Of a stretch of 25,851 nt of DNA, positions 2,319 through 11,550 are shown in pieces. Position 1 is the stretch's first letter. Each line of letters begins with the position of its first letter. Origin of the DNA: a virus. The notes under the pieces were generated by a model. It ran no database searches, was not told the origin of the DNA, and was given only the letters and a program-made list of their open reading frames with translations. The position numbers and the translations under genes are program-made. The stretch is taken from positions 1-25,851 of IMG/VR virus record IMGVR_UViG_3300009504_000033. One strand, 5' to 3'.

Positions 2319-3617
2319 TTACAGTAGCCAAGCAGGAAGTTGCTCAGCCTCGGGTTGCACTGCACTAAACAATGGTGCAGCGTTGACGATAGCCGACTGG
2401 CGACTATCAGACTCTGCGACAACGGTAAGCTTGCCAGCCACCTTTGCCACATACTCTGTCTCAAGCGTCTTGAGTTGACGATCGGACAAAGACTTCTTGA
2501 CCTTCTCGCCAGCCTTGGTGACTTCCCACGCCAGCTTCTCAGCCTTAGCAGGTGTGACGAGTTTGGTTTCATATACGGCCGACTTCGGGATGCCCATCTT
2601 GATCAGCTTCTCAGCCATCTCGCTCTCAGGCAGTGACCAAGAGCGACTGCCGCGCCCGTGGACCAGCTTTAAGCCAGGAAGCACGTCACCAGCTTGCAAG
2701 CGGCGCAAAGCTTCTGTCTCGACAGCTTCCAAGAGTTGACGCATCAGGGGTGCGGCTTCCATGATCTGCCTGATCTGGTTGCCGTCCATCGTCGCTGGGT
2801 CTTTGTTGGCGCTTTGCTGTGCCAACTCCAAAACTTCAGGTTTGGTCGTATCGACTATTGGGAACATGACGCCGATCTCCTTCATTACGGTAGATGCTCG
2901 GGTAGAGCAAGCTTTGTGTTTACAGAACTTACAGTGGTCACCGCTGACAAGCGGGGCATCGGGTGCGTCAGTGGCGGCAGCACCAGCGACGAACCGTCCA
3001 ATTTTACCCAACAAGTAATCAACTGGCACTTCACTGAACGTGATAGGTTGCATACCCTTCATGGCCAACTTAGGCTGGATCACTGTCATGCGCACTGTCT
3101 TAAAAGGATACGGCTGGTTCACAGGAATGCGCAAGCCAGCAAGTGCACCAATCGCATACAGCTCGAGTTGGGGGTTGGTTTCAACCTTGACCTCGCCCAT
3201 ACCGTCCTTGTAGTCAATGATCTCAAGCACCTCGGCACCGTGAATCTGCACGTCAGCCGTACCAGCCAAGTCATTACGACCCAGCAGGTAAGACGGGTTG
3301 ACGCGCCGCTCGGCCACAATGTCGCACACGACCAATTCACCAGCGCGCTTGCGGATGTACTCCACAGCGACCTTGACTCGGGCGGCACGATCAGCGTCAA
3401 CGACAAACTCACCTTCATGGTCCTTCATCTTGATGCCAACCATGCTGATCGAGTCAGCCAGTCCAGCCTTGATGCAGTGCTCCAAAACCGTGTGCGTGTG
3501 GGTGCCGTCTATGCCTGCGGTGCTTGACTCGTCAGGGTACTTGGCCTCCTCGCGCACACTGCCAGGGCACGACAGCCACCGAGCAGCTTTGCTTGGGGAT
3601 AGTGTGGCGTGTGCCAT
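2319..3617 (-). CDS. DUF2800 protein, Cas4/RecB-like PD-(D/E)XK nuclease
   Basis: The 432-residue protein has the DUF2800 layout. Nuclease-type residues are visible in order: GTHTHTVLEH (H40, H42), D122 in GTADVQ, D135-x-K137 in IIDYKDG, and the Q150xxxY154 motif. Four cysteines, C17 near the N-terminus plus C229, C232 and C237, have the spacing of the iron-sulfur staple of Cas4 and AddB nucleases. A role in DNA end processing or recombination during replication is inferred from this fold and from the adjacent ssDNA-binding protein and polymerase. Its ATG overlaps the stop of the upstream gene by one base (TAATG), implying translational coupling. The family call is firm; the activity is not proven for most members. 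Confidence 0.88.
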   Translation of the reverse strand: MAHATLSPSKAARWLSCPGSVREEAKYPDESSTAGIDGTHTHTVLEHCIKAGLADSISMVGIKMKDHEGEFVVDADRAARVKVAVEYIRKRAGELVVCDIVAERRVNPSYLLGRNDLAGTADVQIHGAEVLEIIDYKDGMGEVKVETNPQLELYAIGALAGLRIPVNQPYPFKTVRMTVIQPKLAMKGMQPITFSEVPVDYLLGKIGRFVAGAAATDAPDAPLVSGDHCKFCKHKACSTRASTVMKEIGVMFPIVDTTKPEVLELAQQSANKDPATMDGNQIRQIMEAAPLMRQLLEAVETEALRRLQAGDVLPGLKLVHGRGSRSWSLPESEMAEKLIKMGIPKSAVYETKLVTPAKAEKLAWEVTKAGEKVKKSLSDRQLKTLETEYVAKVAGKLTVVAESDSRQSAIVNAAPLFSAVQPEAEQLPAWLL

Positions 3618-4165
3618 TACTGAGCCTTGCGAACAGCTTCGATGCCAGTGTAGAGCTGTGCATACTGCTCAGGCTTGACATCGTTGATGTTGACCACGCC
3701 GATCTGATTGAGCACGGCTTGGATGCCAGAGGCACGCTGTGGGCCAATCTCGCGGTACACATTGAGCACGTACTGCGTCATGGTCTGCGAGTCGTTAAAG
3801 GGCACCTCGACAGGAGCCACCGGTGCAGCAGCAGCGGGTGCAGCCACAGGAATGTCAAACACGGGTGCAGCGGGCATCGCAGGTGCCGTCGGCTGTGATC
3901 CAGCAGGGTTCGTCGGGATGACAGAAGCTGGAGCAACCGCTTGAGCCAAAGGGACGGTCACCGCCGCGACAGCGGGAGCTGGTGCAGACTGCGTTACTAC
4001 AGGTGCTGGTGCTTGTGCAGCAACAGGTGCAGGTGTAGACTGTTCGATCTTGGTTTCGACAGCGATTTTGGCTTCGCGGGGCAATGAATCTACCAAGCTT
4101 TGCAGCACCTTGGCATTGGCAAGGATGGCTTCAGCGATGGTTTGGATGGTTTTATCGTTCAACAT
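3617..4165 (-). CDS. Hypothetical replication-operon protein with Pro/Ala-rich linker
   Basis: Not recognised by name. The 182-residue protein has three parts. An N-terminal helical segment (about 1-38) is followed by a long low-complexity Pro/Ala/Val linker (about 42-121). A compact C-terminal domain (about 122-182) contains NVYREIGPQRASGIQAVL and ends YTGIEAVRKAQ. The two-domain-plus-linker shape suggests an adaptor or tether rather than an enzyme. It lies between the RHH gene, which it overlaps by 14 bases, and the nuclease gene, which it overlaps by 1 base. It is therefore co-translated with replication proteins and may work with the ssDNA-binding protein or nuclease; that is inference. 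Confidence 0.75.
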   Translation of the reverse strand: MLNDKTIQTIAEAILANAKVLQSLVDSLPREAKIAVETKIEQSTPAPVAAQAPAPVVTQSAPAPAVAAVTVPLAQAVAPASVIPTNPAGSQPTAPAMPAAPVFDIPVAAPAAAAPVAPVEVPFNDSQTMTQYVLNVYREIGPQRASGIQAVLNQIGVVNINDVKPEQYAQLYTGIEAVRKAQ

Positions 4166-4343
4166 GGTACAGACTCTCTTTCGGGTTTACAGGTGGTTTG
4201 ACAATTAAGCGATCTTCGATGAACGCTCTAACGAATTCACGCATGATCTCGGACGGTTGCCCGTACCTTTGAGACTTGTCGTGAAACTTGGTGCTTTCAA
4301 GCTCAGTGAGCCGAAAAGAAATGATGATTTTTTTGGAATCCAT
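4152..4343 (-). CDS. Small ribbon-helix-helix (CopG/Arc-like) DNA-binding protein
   Basis: The 63-residue protein fits the ribbon-helix-helix pattern: a basic N-terminal beta strand (KKIIISFRL, residues 4-12), helix A (13-25), a turn with G28-x-P-S, and helix B (31-44, EIMREFVRAFIED). Such proteins bind operators as dimers and are usually autorepressors. It is the first gene of the leftward operon, only about 20 bases from the predicted transcription start, with GGAG about 8 bases before the ATG. A perfect inverted repeat lies over its own promoter (4369-4391) and is the natural candidate target. The fold call rests on pattern only. Confidence 0.7.
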   Translation of the reverse strand: MDSKKIIISFRLTELESTKFHDKSQRYGQPSEIMREFVRAFIEDRLIVKPPVNPKESLYHVER

Positions 4344-4486: not shown

Positions 4487-4525
4487 ATGAAAATGACAAC
4501 TGCGGTTGCCAAGGATATTGTATGA
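4487..4525 (+). CDS. Possible 12-codon leader peptide upstream of primase
   Basis: An ATG at 4487 with a strong AAGGAG site (4474-4479, 7-base spacing) opens a 12-codon frame encoding MKMTTAVAKDIV. Its TGA overlaps the primase ATG (ATGA at 4522-4525). The primase ATG also has its own AAGGA (4511-4515, 6-base spacing) inside this frame. The small frame could be a coupling leader or simply a fortuitous start codon. Its length is too short for codon statistics. Confidence 0.3.
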   Translation: MKMTTAVAKDIV

Positions 4526-6996
4526 CAATGGTCAATCAGGTGCAACAACACCCTGCGTCTGTCGATGCGTACATACGACACGGTTGGAGCCTTGTGCCCA
4601 TACCACCGGGCACCAAAGGCCCACGCACGCCCAATTGGAACGAGCGTCAAACGGCGTTGAAGTCCCAGTCCGACTTGCCTTCGGGGTGGGGTATCGGCTT
4701 GGCCCATGCCTACAGCGGCACCATGGCCTTGGACATTGACCATTGGGAAGGTGCCACCGAGCTGCTGCGGCAAAACGACATCGATCTGCGCACCTTGTAC
4801 GACGCCCCTGACGCTGTGGTTATCGACAGTGGCAAGACTGGCAGGGGCAAGCTGCTGTACTCGATGCCTTTTGGCCTGACCCTACCGTCCAAGAAGATCA
4901 TCCTCGACGGTCAAACGATTTACGAGCTGCGCTGCGCCACGGCCAACGGCTTGACGGTGCAGGATGTGTTGCCACCGTCCATCCACCCCGACACGCGCCA
5001 GCCTTACCGTTGGGCAGGCAACGGCAACTGGATGCGCGCGCCAGTGCTGCCCGATGCCATTCTTGTCCTGTGGCACTCGCTTTTGGAGCAAGACAAGCAG
5101 CGCAACATCAGCAACGACTCGCCTGTCAACGCCTCATGGGACGAGGTGACCTCGGCGCTGCACAGCATCAGTGCCGACTGCTCCCGTGACGAGTGGGTGA
5201 CCTGCGGCATGGCCCTGCACTATGCCGGTAGTCAGACCAACAATCTTGAGTACGCATTCCACCTGTGGGATCAGTGGAGCCAAGCCTCTGCCAAGTACCC
5301 TGGCGACCGCGCCATGCTTGGCCAATGGGCCTCGTTTAAGACTGAGAAGGCCACTAGCGTCAAGCTCGGTAGCCTGTTCCACTTGGCCAAGCAGCGCGAC
5401 TGGGTGCGTCCTGCACCAGATGTCTCGACCATGTTCGGCTCTGTAGGTGATGTCAAGACCCCGATCCAAATCACCATGGACCTGCGCCCACCAGCGCCCA
5501 ACCTCGACATCAGCCTGTTCCCCGAGGTGCTGCAGCGCCGCGCCCAAGAGATCAGTGACGGCGTGGGCTGTGACCCATTGGTGCCACTGTTTGCGGGTTT
5601 GTCTGCGGTGTGCGGTGCCATCGATGCACGCACCCGGCTTGAACTCAAGCCCGGTTTCCTTGTGCCGCCGGTGCTTTGGATCATGACGATCGGTGACCCG
5701 GCTGACAAGAAGTCACCTGGCTCTCGGCCCATGTTCAAGGTGCTGCGCGAGATCGAGGGCGAGGACCGCCAGCGCTTCGCCAAGGAACTGCTGACCTACG
5801 AGACTCTTGACGCCCAGTACCAGTCGGCCAAGAAGGCGTTTATCGAGCATGCCCAGTCGGCCGATGCTTTGCTCAACAACACCATCCCACCGAACCTGCC
5901 GCCCGAGCCGCAGGAGCCTATCCCGGCCAAGATCATTGTGCAGGACATCACTTCGCAGAAACTCGTGCGCCAAGCGGCCAAGCGGCCACGGGGTCTGTTG
6001 TGCTACCTCGACGAGATGTCATCGTGGGTGGACAAGGTTTGCGACAAGCGCAGTGGGGATGACAGGTCGACATGGACTGTCAGTTACGAGTCAGAAACTT
6101 ACGAGATGGACCGGGTTGGTGCGGGTGTGATTTTTTGTGAGAACTTCGCGCTGTCGATCTTTGGCAACATCCAGCCCCAAGTGTTCCACCAAAACGTGGA
6201 CGCCTTGTCCAAAGATGGCCTGCTTCAGCGCTTCATCCCTGTGCCCCTGCGTCACAACTACACGCGCAAGGGCAACCCCAAGCCTGCGTTCATGACCTCT
6301 GAGTCACATTATGACCAGATGATCCGTTCGATTTACGCTCTGCCGGCGCTCAACTACACCTTGACCGACCCTGCAGCGCAGGCGTTTGACGACTTCCAAA
6401 CGTGGTACGAGGGTGCCAAGAAGAACGAGCGCGTTGTGGGCACGGGCAACCGGTTCATGACGGCCTTTGGCAAAATTGAGGGTCTGCTGGGGCGCATTGT
6501 GCTGTTGTGGCATGTGATGCACGACTCGTACAACACACGGGTGAGCTTGGAGACGATGAACAAGGCCATCGAGTTCATCCGCACCTACTTGATCCCGTCT
6601 CTGCGATACACGCACGAGAACGATCTGGGTGGCAACGACTCCTTTGACATGTGGCTGGCCGACTACATCGTCTATCACAGCGAAATGCCCCTGATGACGC
6701 TGTCTGATCTTAAGCACGGCGCGCGCAAGCAACTCAAGAGCCTCAACACATGGCAAAAGGACCAAGCGGTCATTGGCGCAATGTATCCCTTGGAGCAGGG
6801 CAAGTGGGTCGTGCGAATGGATGACGGCACCAAAGAGCACCAGCACATCGCTCAGTGGGCCATCAACCCCGAGCTGCGCACGATCTTCAAGGATCACCGT
6901 GAAAACGTTATCCGGGCCAAGCAAGCGCTGATGGACGAGGTGCGAGCTGCCACCCGCTCGCCAATACCCAAGGTCAAATATTCCGAGGCTCTGTAG
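4522..6996 (+). CDS. Bifunctional primase-polymerase / DUF3987 helicase-like protein
   Basis: The 824-residue protein is a replicative primase-helicase fusion. The N-terminal PrimPol domain (about 15-185) has the catalytic D71-I-D73 motif after GIGLAHAYSGTMAL, a basic SGKTGRGK segment (103-110) and a VLPPSIHPDTRQPYRW block (149-164). A PriCT_2-like linker domain follows (about 204-293; AFHLWDQWSQASAKY, WASF). The rest is DUF3987-like ATPase: a loop GDPADKKS (391-398) stands where Walker A is expected, and Walker B is LDE (496-498) in LLCYLDEMSS. The Walker A is degenerate, lacking GxxGxGK. The protein should prime and possibly unwind DNA. It is transcribed alone, opposite to the other replication genes, and ends at a terminator. 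The ATG at 4522 has AAGGA 6 bases upstream; an in-frame ATG at 4528 is an alternative. Confidence 0.9.
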   Translation: MTMVNQVQQHPASVDAYIRHGWSLVPIPPGTKGPRTPNWNERQTALKSQSDLPSGWGIGLAHAYSGTMALDIDHWEGATELLRQNDIDLRTLYDAPDAVVIDSGKTGRGKLLYSMPFGLTLPSKKIILDGQTIYELRCATANGLTVQDVLPPSIHPDTRQPYRWAGNGNWMRAPVLPDAILVLWHSLLEQDKQRNISNDSPVNASWDEVTSALHSISADCSRDEWVTCGMALHYAGSQTNNLEYAFHLWDQWSQASAKYPGDRAMLGQWASFKTEKATSVKLGSLFHLAKQRDWVRPAPDVSTMFGSVGDVKTPIQITMDLRPPAPNLDISLFPEVLQRRAQEISDGVGCDPLVPLFAGLSAVCGAIDARTRLELKPGFLVPPVLWIMTIGDPADKKSPGSRPMFKVLREIEGEDRQRFAKELLTYETLDAQYQSAKKAFIEHAQSADALLNNTIPPNLPPEPQEPIPAKIIVQDITSQKLVRQAAKRPRGLLCYLDEMSSWVDKVCDKRSGDDRSTWTVSYESETYEMDRVGAGVIFCENFALSIFGNIQPQVFHQNVDALSKDGLLQRFIPVPLRHNYTRKGNPKPAFMTSESHYDQMIRSIYALPALNYTLTDPAAQAFDDFQTWYEGAKKNERVVGTGNRFMTAFGKIEGLLGRIVLLWHVMHDSYNTRVSLETMNKAIEFIRTYLIPSLRYTHENDLGGNDSFDMWLADYIVYHSEMPLMTLSDLKHGARKQLKSLNTWQKDQAVIGAMYPLEQGKWVVRMDDGTKEHQHIAQWAINPELRTIFKDHRENVIRAKQALMDEVRAATRSPIPKVKYSEAL

Positions 6997-7143: not shown

Positions 7144-7473
7144 CTATGGCGCATTTTCAGTCGATTCCAAAACTTGGCCCTTGGGCGGTCGGCCACGGCG
7201 CGGCGCGTCGGCCGCGGTGGGCAACAGCGCAGCGTGCAGGCCGGGGGCTAGGGTTTCGACGATCGCCAGCACATCCAGCAAGCGCAGCACAGCGGCCGGG
7301 GGCATGCGTTCACCCGTTGACCATTTGCGCACGGTGTGCACCGGTGCGCCAAGGTACAGGGCTAAACCGTGCAGGGATAAACCCAGCCGGGCGCGCAGCG
7401 CGTCAAAATGTCCAGGCTGCAGGGTGGCCACAGGTGCAGCGGGTTTTTTGTTTTTGGGGGTTTTGGTGGTCAT
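7144..7473 (-). CDS. HTH transcriptional regulator with C-terminal AT-hook-like motif
   Basis: The 109-residue protein starts with a Lys/Pro/Ala-rich arm (1-20). A helix-turn-helix region follows (about 22-68; LSLHGLALYLGAPVHTVRKW) with the look of Xre-type or antitoxin-type regulators. Near the end, RRGRPPK (92-98) is a typical AT-hook minor-groove motif. Its role is probably control of phage or accessory gene expression. It is the last gene of the accessory operon but lies beyond an intrinsic terminator (7497-7521), so its level may depend on read-through or on an unseen promoter. The ATG at 7473 is preceded by GGAAAG at modest spacing. The HTH call is by pattern; the target is unknown. Confidence 0.75.
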   Translation of the reverse strand: MTTKTPKNKKPAAPVATLQPGHFDALRARLGLSLHGLALYLGAPVHTVRKWSTGERMPPAAVLRLLDVLAIVETLAPGLHAALLPTAADAPRRGRPPKGQVLESTENAP

Positions 7474-9672: not shown

Positions 9673-9822
9673 TTACAGGGAAAACAGGAACAGGATCGAC
9701 GCTAGCACAGCCAGCGCGGCCACAATGCCGAAAAAGACCACAGCCACAGGGCCGGGGGTTTGCTCGGGTTTTTTGGTGCAGTAAATCTGCACATAGTCCA
9801 ATGGGGCGCGCGAGTCGTTCAT
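9673..9822 (-). CDS. 49-residue single-pass membrane microprotein
   Basis: A short frame starts MNDSRAPLDYVQIYCTKKPE and then has one strongly hydrophobic segment (about residues 25-49; VAVVFFGIVAALAVLASI). It ends FLFSL directly before the stop. Lysines lie before the membrane segment, which suggests an N-in orientation. Its ATG overlaps the upstream stop as ATGA (9819-9822), the same coupling seen elsewhere in this operon, which supports it as real despite its size. The function is unknown. A lysis role (holin or spanin) is conceivable, but nothing next to it supports that. Confidence 0.65.
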   Translation of the reverse strand: MNDSRAPLDYVQIYCTKKPEQTPGPVAVVFFGIVAALAVLASILFLFSL

Positions 9823-10145
9823 GCGTCACCCCTTACGACTTGGCCACTAATGGCCGCTTCATCGGCCGCATACTGCAGCGAGACCCGGCGCGACGGTGTG
9901 GCCAGGATCGATTTAAGCTCGGCCTTGATCCGGCGCGCAGTGTCACCGCGCCAGGTGGTCGCATTGGCCAAAAAATATTGCACGATAGAGCGCGCAGTGT
10001 CCAGGCCGTATGCGTCATTGATCGACTGCAGCGACAACATGGCGCCAAGGTACGGCACGGCGCCAAAATAGGGGTTTGGCCAGTCGGTGCGGATTTCGCG
10101 TGCGATGGTGGCCAGGGGGCGCGGTGTGGTGTTCGATTGTGTCAT
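9819..10145 (-). CDS. Hypothetical protein, first gene of accessory operon
   Basis: Not recognised. The 108-residue, probably helical protein begins MTQSNTTPRPLATIAREI. It contains NPYFGAVPYLGAMLSLQSIN, SIVQYFLANATTWRGDTARR and a final QYAADEAAISGQVV. The reading frame is open further upstream to 10292, but that extension runs through the promoter and operator-like repeats. The ATG at 10145 has AAAGGT about 9 bases upstream, like the site before the 9648 gene, and is preferred. It is the promoter-proximal gene of the accessory operon. Confidence 0.7.
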   Translation of the reverse strand: MTQSNTTPRPLATIAREIRTDWPNPYFGAVPYLGAMLSLQSINDAYGLDTARSIVQYFLANATTWRGDTARRIKAELKSILATPSRRVSLQYAADEAAISGQVVRGDA

Positions 10146-10167
10146 TGTGTGTTTACCTTTACAGTTT

Positions 10168-10190
10168 GAACCCGGTTCGACGTTGAACCG
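10168..10190. promoter_or_regulatory. Overlapping GAACC inverted half-sites downstream of accessory promoter
   Basis: GAACC-C-GGTTC (10168-10178) is a perfect 5+1+5 palindrome. Its right half also pairs with a third half-site: CGGTTC (10173-10178) and GAACCG (10185-10190) around 6 bases. The block lies between the predicted leftward start (near 10191) and the ATG at 10145, a place where a repressor would block elongation or initiation. The ligand is unknown; the HTH/AT-hook protein is one candidate. Confidence 0.5.
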
Positions 10191-10197
10191 TGCATGC

Positions 10198-10226
10198 AGT
10201 ATACATGAACCCAATGGGTGAAACAA
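10198..10226 (-). promoter_or_regulatory. Leftward promoter of the accessory operon
   Basis: On the - strand the -10 box is TATACT (10203-10198, five of six consensus bases). At 17 bases there is a weak -35 box TTGTTT (10226-10221). The spacer contains a full CCCAWTGGG element (10210-10218), so binding there would interfere directly with RNA polymerase or help recruit it. The leader to the ATG at 10145 is about 45 bases. Confidence 0.5.
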
Positions 10227-10345
10227 TACCCGACTGCAGCGCGGGGTTAAATTGTGCCCAATGGGTGCAGGGTTTACCGGTGCCTCTACCATATTTCCAG
10301 TATCGTGTCAAACCCAAACACAAAAAGACCCAATTTAAAAAAGTC

Positions 10346-10364
10346 AAAAAAGCCCTCCTCGGGC
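10346..10364 (-). terminator. Leftward intrinsic terminator inside control region
   Basis: GCCC (10352-10355) and GGGC (10361-10364) pair around a 5-base loop. On the - strand they are followed by TTTTTT, then GAC and another TTTTTT. The stem is short, but the T-runs are good. It would stop leftward transcription from the repeat array or late region before the accessory promoter. Confidence 0.5.
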
Positions 10365-10428
10365 GCGCAATGGAAACCCGGTAGACCCTCTAATTATTGC
10401 CCATTGGGTCATATCCCATTGGGTCATT

Positions 10429-10443
10429 GATTAAGGGTTAATC
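10429..10443. repeat. AT-rich inverted repeat GATTAA-GGG-TTAATC
   Basis: Perfect 6-base arms flank GGG. It lies between the CCCATTGGG copies at 10415 and 10447, in the most AT-rich part of the array. It could be a second protein site or an easily melted segment. Confidence 0.4.
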
Positions 10444-10601
10444 TTACCCATTGGGCAATTGTCCCAATGCTTGCCCCATTGGGTCACATTGGCCCGATTG
10501 ACTCGCATTAACCCACTGGCCCGGATTAAGTGCCCCTATTCATACCCGGCCACAATGCCCCGTAATGCTTGCCCAATGGGTGCAGGGCATGCGGTGGCCA
10601 C

Positions 10602-10785
10602 GGTGGCCAGGCTGCAGCGGTGCGCGGGTGCCGGTGGCCATTGGTGCCAGGTGGCCATTGGTGCCGGGTGCGCGGGTGGTGGTGGCCATTGGTGCCGGGT
10701 GCAGGCCATGGGCACAGGGCACAGGGTGGCCAGGCTGCAGGGCTGCAGGCTGCAGCGGTGCGCCGGTGCCGGTGGCCATTGGTGC
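10602..10785 (+). repeat. G-rich direct-repeat block: four GGTGGCCATTGGTGC copies and a 38-base duplication
   Basis: Exact 15-base copies lie at 10633-10647, 10650-10664, 10681-10695 and 10771-10785. The first and last are the ends of a 38-base direct repeat (10610-10647 and 10748-10785) that differs at one base. Both are preceded by GGTGGCCAGGCTGCAG (10602-10617, 10725-10740). CTGCAG and GGTGCCGG subrepeats fill the rest. The + strand is strongly G-rich and C-poor in runs. Confidence 0.8.
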
Positions 10786-10941
10786 AGGCCGCTCGGGTTC
10801 ACGGTGCCCAAAGGGTGGGGGGGGACCCCCAGCGGCCGCTGGAACTATGTTACAGGAGGTCCCCCGGACACCGCGAAACCAAATCCAACTCAAAACCCAT
10901 TGGGTCACATATACGCATGACCCTCTGAAAAAAATTAAAAA

Positions 10942-10971
10942 TTCCAGCACCAGTTGACAAAGTGATACACT
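10942..10971 (+). promoter_or_regulatory. Rightward extended -10 promoter of the late operon
   Basis: TGATACACT (10963-10971) matches an extended -10 (TGnTACACT), with a weak TTCCAG -35 (10942-10947) at 18 bases. The start would fall at about 10978, the A of the terS ATG. A TTGACA at 10954-10959 is too close to this -10 to act as its -35. AGTG-ATA-CACT (10961-10971) is also an inverted repeat. Confidence 0.4.
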
Positions 10972-10977
10972 GCGCCA

Positions 10978-11550
10978 ATGGACAAGTCCCCCGACCCCAT
11001 GAACACACCACACCAACTCGAACTGCCCTCGTGGCTCACCCCTGCACTTGCTGCACCTGAGTCGCCGCAACACTCCCCTCTCGACCTTGCCATCATCCAG
11101 CAGGGTCGTGAGGACAAGCGCGCCTTAGAGGAGCAGCGCAACGAGTGCGCGTTTGACCGGGTGCTTGAGACGATTGCACGGGGTAACCCCTTGAGCGCAG
11201 CGCTGGAGAACGAGGTCTACGAGATCGACTACCCGCGCTACTTGTCGTGGATCATGCGAGACATGGAGCGCAAGCGCAGGTACTACGAAGCGCAGGAGAC
11301 TGGGGCAGAGGTCGTCTCGCACCAGATGATCAAAATCGCCGATGCCGACGACTCGGTAGAGGACGTGGCCCGATCGACCTTGAGGATTAACACCCGTAAA
11401 TGGCTCATGGGTGTGTGGAACAGGAAACGCTTTGGTGACATCAAACAAATTGAGCAGAACGTCACGATCGACCTGAGCGAGGCGATGCGCGTGGCGCAGG
11501 AGCGCGTGGACAGCAGGATCGTGGACGTACAGGCGAGGGTGATACGGTGA
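10978..11550 (+). CDS. terS: Terminase small subunit
   Basis: The 190-residue DNA-recognition subunit of the packaging motor fits the small-terminase type found in many podo- and siphophages. Visible parts are an N-terminal flexible Pro-rich segment, a helix-turn-helix-like region (about 45-90; FDRVLETIARGNPLSAALENE), YPRYLSWIMRDMERKRRYYE (about 77-96), an ADDSVEDVARSTLRINTRKW block and RFGDIKQIEQNVTI before a helical end. It binds the packaging site and loads TerL. The terL start overlaps its stop as GTGA, the usual pairing. No ribosome site precedes the ATG at 10978 or the alternative ATG at 10999. A leaderless transcript from the adjacent promoter would explain that. Confidence 0.88.
   Translation: MDKSPDPMNTPHQLELPSWLTPALAAPESPQHSPLDLAIIQQGREDKRALEEQRNECAFDRVLETIARGNPLSAALENEVYEIDYPRYLSWIMRDMERKRRYYEAQETGAEVVSHQMIKIADADDSVEDVARSTLRINTRKWLMGVWNRKRFGDIKQIEQNVTIDLSEAMRVAQERVDSRIVDVQARVIR

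Follow-up and report, generated by a model that had tools for sequence, protein, structure and literature searches.

A conserved palindrome array upstream of terS as a probable early/late control region in uncultured freshwater podoviruses

In Bacillus phage phi29 a single protein, p4, represses the early promoters A2b and A2c and activates the late promoter A3 (PMC10899789). The antitoxin MqsA binds the palindromic operator AACCT(N)3AGGTT (PMC4894380). In the pac region of Bacillus phage SPP1, repeats upstream of terS overlap the terS promoters (PMC4737164), and mycobacteriophage Corndog (Cluster O) carries many copies of the palindrome TGTTCGG-N3-CCGAACA, which has a 3 bp spacer, together with predicted leaderless mRNAs (PMC4351075).

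An array of short palindromes next to the small terminase gene of an uncultured podovirus resembles each of these systems in part. The one-protein logic of phi29, early genes off and late genes on, is what we propose here; p4 itself is unrelated to the helix-turn-helix (HTH) protein of this phage and, unlike in phi29, the array counts about 4 to 15 short palindromes and the operon proposed to be repressed carries the gene of the regulator itself. The likeness to MqsA lies in the HTH similarity and in the operator geometry of 4-base half-sites three bases apart (PMC4894380), whereas the present protein falls below the family cut-off and lacks the zinc-binding domain, its half-site is ACCC and not ACCT, and activation is proposed as well. 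The SPP1 boxes are direct repeats, whereas the sites here are palindromes in both orientations that are tied to promoters and covary with a regulator. Corndog copies are spread genome-wide, mostly away from promoters, whereas here there is one cluster per genome. A literature search for CCCATTGGG gave no phage system among the matches listed. As far as our searches show, switches in which one regulator acts on both early and late genes are known, but this type of regulator, its operator and the array are undescribed.

The window, i.e. the whole 25.9 kb stretch of DNA that was analysed, is a record of an uncultured podovirus. Genes for an SSB-like protein, a RecB-like exonuclease and a ribbon-helix-helix (RHH) protein (4152–4343) run leftward, and that of a PrimPol-helicase runs rightward (4522–6996). 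A second leftward operon extends from 10145 down to the gene of the MqsA-like HTH protein (phrog_2104, 7144–7473, minus strand), which is its last gene; its first gene is phrog_13953 (9819–10145, minus strand). The rightward late operon starts with terS, which encodes an Sf6 gp1-type small terminase (10978–11550, plus strand), and continues with terL and the virion genes. Between the divergent starts of phrog_13953 and terS lies a gap of 832 bp (10146–10977), gene-free as an earlier, sequence-only reading had described it.

This gap contains eight exact copies of CCCAWTGGG. Two lie on the left (10210–10218 and 10257–10265), a central cluster occupies 10400–10408, 10415–10423, 10447–10455, 10475–10483 and 10572–10580, and a solitary copy is found near terS (10896–10904). 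The sequence-only reading was right about the eight copies and the range that they span (10210–10904), as well as the sole copy elsewhere (14466, inside the portal gene) and the 74 bases that separate the last copy from terS. It had estimated about 0.2 chance copies per window. Shuffling the window with its dinucleotides preserved gives a mean of 0.29 (maximum 3), and a first-order Markov null matched in composition to the 832 bp region gives a mean of 0.11 copies, again with a maximum of 3; eight copies are far above either figure. It had also claimed that many copies extend as GGGTCA or a second word and that additional degenerate copies exist: GGGTCA is seen in four of the eight copies and GGGTGCAGGG in two, and one degenerate operator was found, CCCAAAGGG at 10807–10815. 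Tandem-like GGTGGCCATTGGTGCC repeats are present at 10592–10790, between the central operators and a G-run, and close relatives have GGTGGCCA repeats that resemble them.

Clusters of the same word occupy the equivalent position in TerL relatives from IMG/VR. A gene-blind search for three copies in a row yielded 46 viral contigs, most of which encode relatives of TerS (∼34–55% identity) and TerL (44–84%) with the array just upstream of terS. Triple-array contigs without a terminase relative (e.g. L096, L106 and L117) have copies at even intervals; these were taken to be unrelated tandem repeats and left out. About 80 further loci from the same phage group were collected by a search based on the HTH protein (7-row alignment), in which the motif was ignored. 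The position of the array between terS and the divergent leftward operon is conserved down to a TerS identity of about 35%, and in whole relatives of 36–42 kb the motif is essentially restricted to this one locus, with rare single exceptions. The earlier reading had suggested looking for the element upstream of terS in related phages, where its absence would count against a function; it is present. In the shared layout one or two copies stand at the leftward gene, followed by an A/T-rich block that contains a long inverted repeat, and then by the central cluster, the G-run, an A/T tract, the solitary copy and the terS promoter. DSL-LC05 (proposed family Luchaoviridae) was the sole named relative in which the array was found; it carries six CCCACTGGG copies at this locus. 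The cultured Rhodoferax phage P26218, which has genes in common with DSL-LC05, contains zero copies of the motif, and the chromosomal relatives amount to a single distant TerL on a Rhodoferax MAG contig, without the array.

Lineages that are poor in CCCAWTGGG carry CCCAGCGGG or CCCACTGGG in its place. Over 125 regions the site reads CCC-N3-GGG with flanks that are mostly A and T, and its middle triplet varies by lineage (AAT/ATT in 367 sites, ACT/AGT in 243 and AGC/GCT in 133). The true site is therefore an 11 bp palindrome, ACCC-(A-N-Y)-GGGT, in which two ACCC half-sites stand three bases apart, and not the 9-mer with 4+1+4 symmetry that was described from the window. Some close terminase relatives (L017–L021, L028, L011/L025, L009 and L016/L023) have other repeated words in the same place, namely CTCAWTGAG, CACCCATAACCC, ATTGGCACC, ACCCATTGGA and ACCCATTGGC, as if the specificity of the regulator had shifted.

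On the left side of the array, the leftmost operator (CCCATTGGG on the minus strand) lies within the spacer of a leftward promoter (10198–10226, minus strand) with a −35 element TTGTTT (10221–10226), a 17 bp spacer and a −10 element TATACT (10198–10203). This promoter matches 8 of 12 consensus bases, whereas many relatives reach 10–12. A search for a leftward sigma-70 promoter at the leftmost operator gave scores of 10–12 out of 12 in 46 of 85 relatives, compared with 5 of 573 random windows. The typical relative has TTGACA-N16-TATAAT with the spacer filled by the operator. The distance from operator centre to −10 is 5–7 bp in 42 cases and 16–17 bp, so that the −35 is overlapped, in 11. Among the 86 regions there are 85 promoters that score at least 10; 78 of these point left, and 67 of the 78 are at most 25 bp from an operator. 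An operator overlapping the core of the early divergent promoter is a feature of a phi29 p4-type switch and is found in the relatives, with a weaker copy in the window. Repression of the leftward promoter fits this arrangement, since the operator sits within the promoter spacer.

On the other side, terS is preceded by an extended −10 promoter (TGATACACT, 10963–10971, plus strand) that ends 6 bases before the ATG and has no −35 match. In 63 relatives an extended −10 box is likewise found 4–10 bases ahead of the terS start codon, again with no −35. With so short a distance to the start codon the terS mRNA is probably leaderless or nearly so, and no Shine–Dalgarno sequence is visible in the window (10966–10978). 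The solitary operator lies 32, 43, 53 or 63 bp from the terS −10 in relatives. After clustering of related phages these distances have a period of 10.75–11 bp (R of about 0.64), and this periodicity was reached in none of 20 000 trials of a jitter null. Operator-to-operator spacings do not have such a period (R = 0.07). In the window the solitary operator is 66 bp from the −10, which is about 2 bp off the phased series. A late promoter without a good −35 and with an upstream site on a fixed face of the helix is again what is seen in a phi29 p4-type switch, and because the phased site stands upstream of a promoter that lacks a −35, activation at terS fits.

Which protein reads the sites was addressed by comparing the spacer composition of the sites with protein distances in 65 genomes. 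Partial Mantel correlations for the HTH protein are 0.284 given TerS and 0.278 given PrimPol (both p = 0.0005); these values are modest, and distance tests of this kind lessen but do not fully remove the effect of shared ancestry. Given HTH, the partial correlations of TerS (−0.118), RHH (−0.047) and PrimPol are all slightly negative. Sites resemble each other more between nearest neighbours by HTH than between those by TerS (p = 0.0007) or by PrimPol (p = 0.046). Simple linkage would predict the opposite, because TerS adjoins the array while the HTH gene is about 3 kb away. The residues best associated with the spacer are not limited to the recognition helix. The HTH gene and the array co-occur among TerL relatives, and two lineages (L004 and L030) have the gene without a standard array.

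In sequence, the HTH domain lies near those of MqsA-type and other antitoxins and of phage repressors. The MqsA family model matches 15 of 20 HTH members, with scores below the curated cut-off (19.7 bits against 61.8), and the match begins at model position 69; the N-terminal zinc-binding CxxC domain is absent from the 109-residue sequence. The predicted model (pLDDT 84.5) matches the HigA2, MqsA and Aca folds with weak E-values. The geometry of the operator is that of the MqsA operator, a palindrome with a 3 bp spacer, and one base per half-site differs. Most likely the array provides docking sites for this small phage HTH protein.

We propose, with a probability of roughly 0.64, that in this P22-like podovirus the array controls both divergent transcription units through multiple operators, with the HTH protein acting as a repressor of its own early operon and as an activator of terS and the late genes. 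The strong leftward promoter would fire early, with the HTH protein among its products, and this protein would bind ACCC-N3-GGGT as a dimer. As it accumulates, binding at the left end would cover the leftward promoter and turn off its own operon. Bound at the solitary site, on one helix face relative to RNA polymerase, it would recruit the polymerase to the terS promoter, so that the packaging and virion genes are turned on. The central cluster probably raises the local protein concentration or joins bound dimers into one complex. The outcome would be an early phase that limits itself and then gives way to a late one. Against this switch stand the 8/12 score of the promoter in the window, the off-series distance of its solitary operator, the lineages L004 and L030, and the fact that MqsA is known as a repressor. 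The sequence-only reading had listed a regulator-binding array among its options, and promoter overlap, helical phasing and covariation with HTH argue well for that option.

No described gene-control system was found in the literature for the large family of uncultured freshwater podoviruses to which DSL-LC05 belongs. The present comparison supplies this family with a specific proposal, which names a regulator, its operator and the two target promoters and makes a prediction about their geometry, and it suggests that an antitoxin-type HTH domain has been reused as a lytic timing switch. It also shows that metagenomic contigs by themselves suffice to read regulator–operator pairing and helical phasing.

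A wider reading, which we consider rather unlikely, treats the array, the inverted-repeat block, the G-run and the near-leaderless terS promoter as one unit. An antitoxin-like HTH nucleoprotein complex would then end early transcription, start late transcription and license packaging at the G-run, and an LPxWL peptide shared by TerS, the exonuclease, SSB and some HTH proteins would bring in the machinery for packaging and recombination.

That the array is instead a pac region, where TerS binds the palindromes to start headful packaging, is unlikely. It lies directly upstream of terS in the relatives that carry it, as do the SPP1 pac repeats that span terS promoters, and the G-run beside it tracks the terminase. 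TerS does not covary with the site sequence given HTH, which leaves this option of the sequence-only reading without support from covariation, and a pac site would not be expected to keep a helical register with a promoter. In the pac phages examined to date, TerS has a weak affinity for pac DNA and discriminates little between sequences (PMC4737164, PMC9611059). Where no HTH gene was detected, terminase relatives keep the G-run but lack the array. The conservation of this element (GGGTGGGGGGGGACCCCC in the window, 10813–10830, plus strand) follows the terminase and not the array. On the terL strand just upstream of terL, G-runs occur at 1.17 per kb in a 500 bp bin, against mostly 0–0.2 elsewhere. 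They are kept in terminase relatives that have neither the array nor a detected HTH or PrimPol gene in the stretch examined, are conserved more widely than the array and, in some relatives, lie between terS and terL. The G-run is a better packaging candidate than the palindromes.

We also consider improbable an iteron-type replication origin that is opened at the adjoining A/T tracts and used by the phage PrimPol-helicase, another option of the earlier reading. A single noncoding locus with many copies of a short site, next to A/T-rich tracts and a conserved inverted repeat, would suit an origin; iterons are direct and evenly spaced, however, whereas these copies have mixed orientation and irregular spacing. 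PrimPol does not covary with the sites, and the two outermost copies are linked to promoters. The turning point of GC skew that had been suggested as a check is not consistently found at the array in ten relatives, being clear in one (G004) only, and the replication origin could not be placed from GC skew.

Recognition by a host DNA-binding protein, which the phage would use to time its genes, agrees with the stability of the ACCC/GGGT half-site across very different phages, but the spacer varies between phage lineages and follows a phage gene, which makes a host binder very unlikely. Still less probable is the same switch logic with the RHH protein as the binder. An RHH dimer recognises a short palindrome inside a single major groove, and the RHH gene is present in relatives with enough sequence; yet the DNA-reading strand of RHH changes in G004 and G012 while the site is unchanged, RHH does not covary with the sites given HTH, and the 4-3-4 geometry is closer to an MqsA-type HTH operator. 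A cos site was rejected, as the contig ends near terS fall at different positions.

Between the left and central operators the window has an A/T-rich inverted-repeat block (10286–10378), placed by eye as the counterpart of an inverted repeat of about 110 bp, GTGAC...GTCAC, that is found 450–900 bp upstream of terS in relatives. GTGACA...TGTCAC is present in 43 of 93 regions, compared with 1 of 93 for a control word. The arms covary (permutation p below 0.0005) and the interior is conserved. Rfam has no match for the repeat in five relatives, and no known RNA family has a meaningful score in the window; a new structured RNA or a DNA hairpin is possible.

The motif [LMIV]P.[WF][LMI] occurs at the C-termini of the exonuclease (2319–3617, LPAWLL) and SSB (1640–2302, MPSFLTPQ), as LPSWL near the N-terminus of TerS (10978–11040), and in some HTH proteins. 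In ten genomes there are one or two C-terminal copies per genome, against 0.01–0.07 expected, and the motif looks like a docking peptide common to these proteins. Part of the phrog_13953 gene (9907–10121) has ∼70% DNA identity to a gene of Mycobacterium phage Iwokeuplikedis, whose host is very different.
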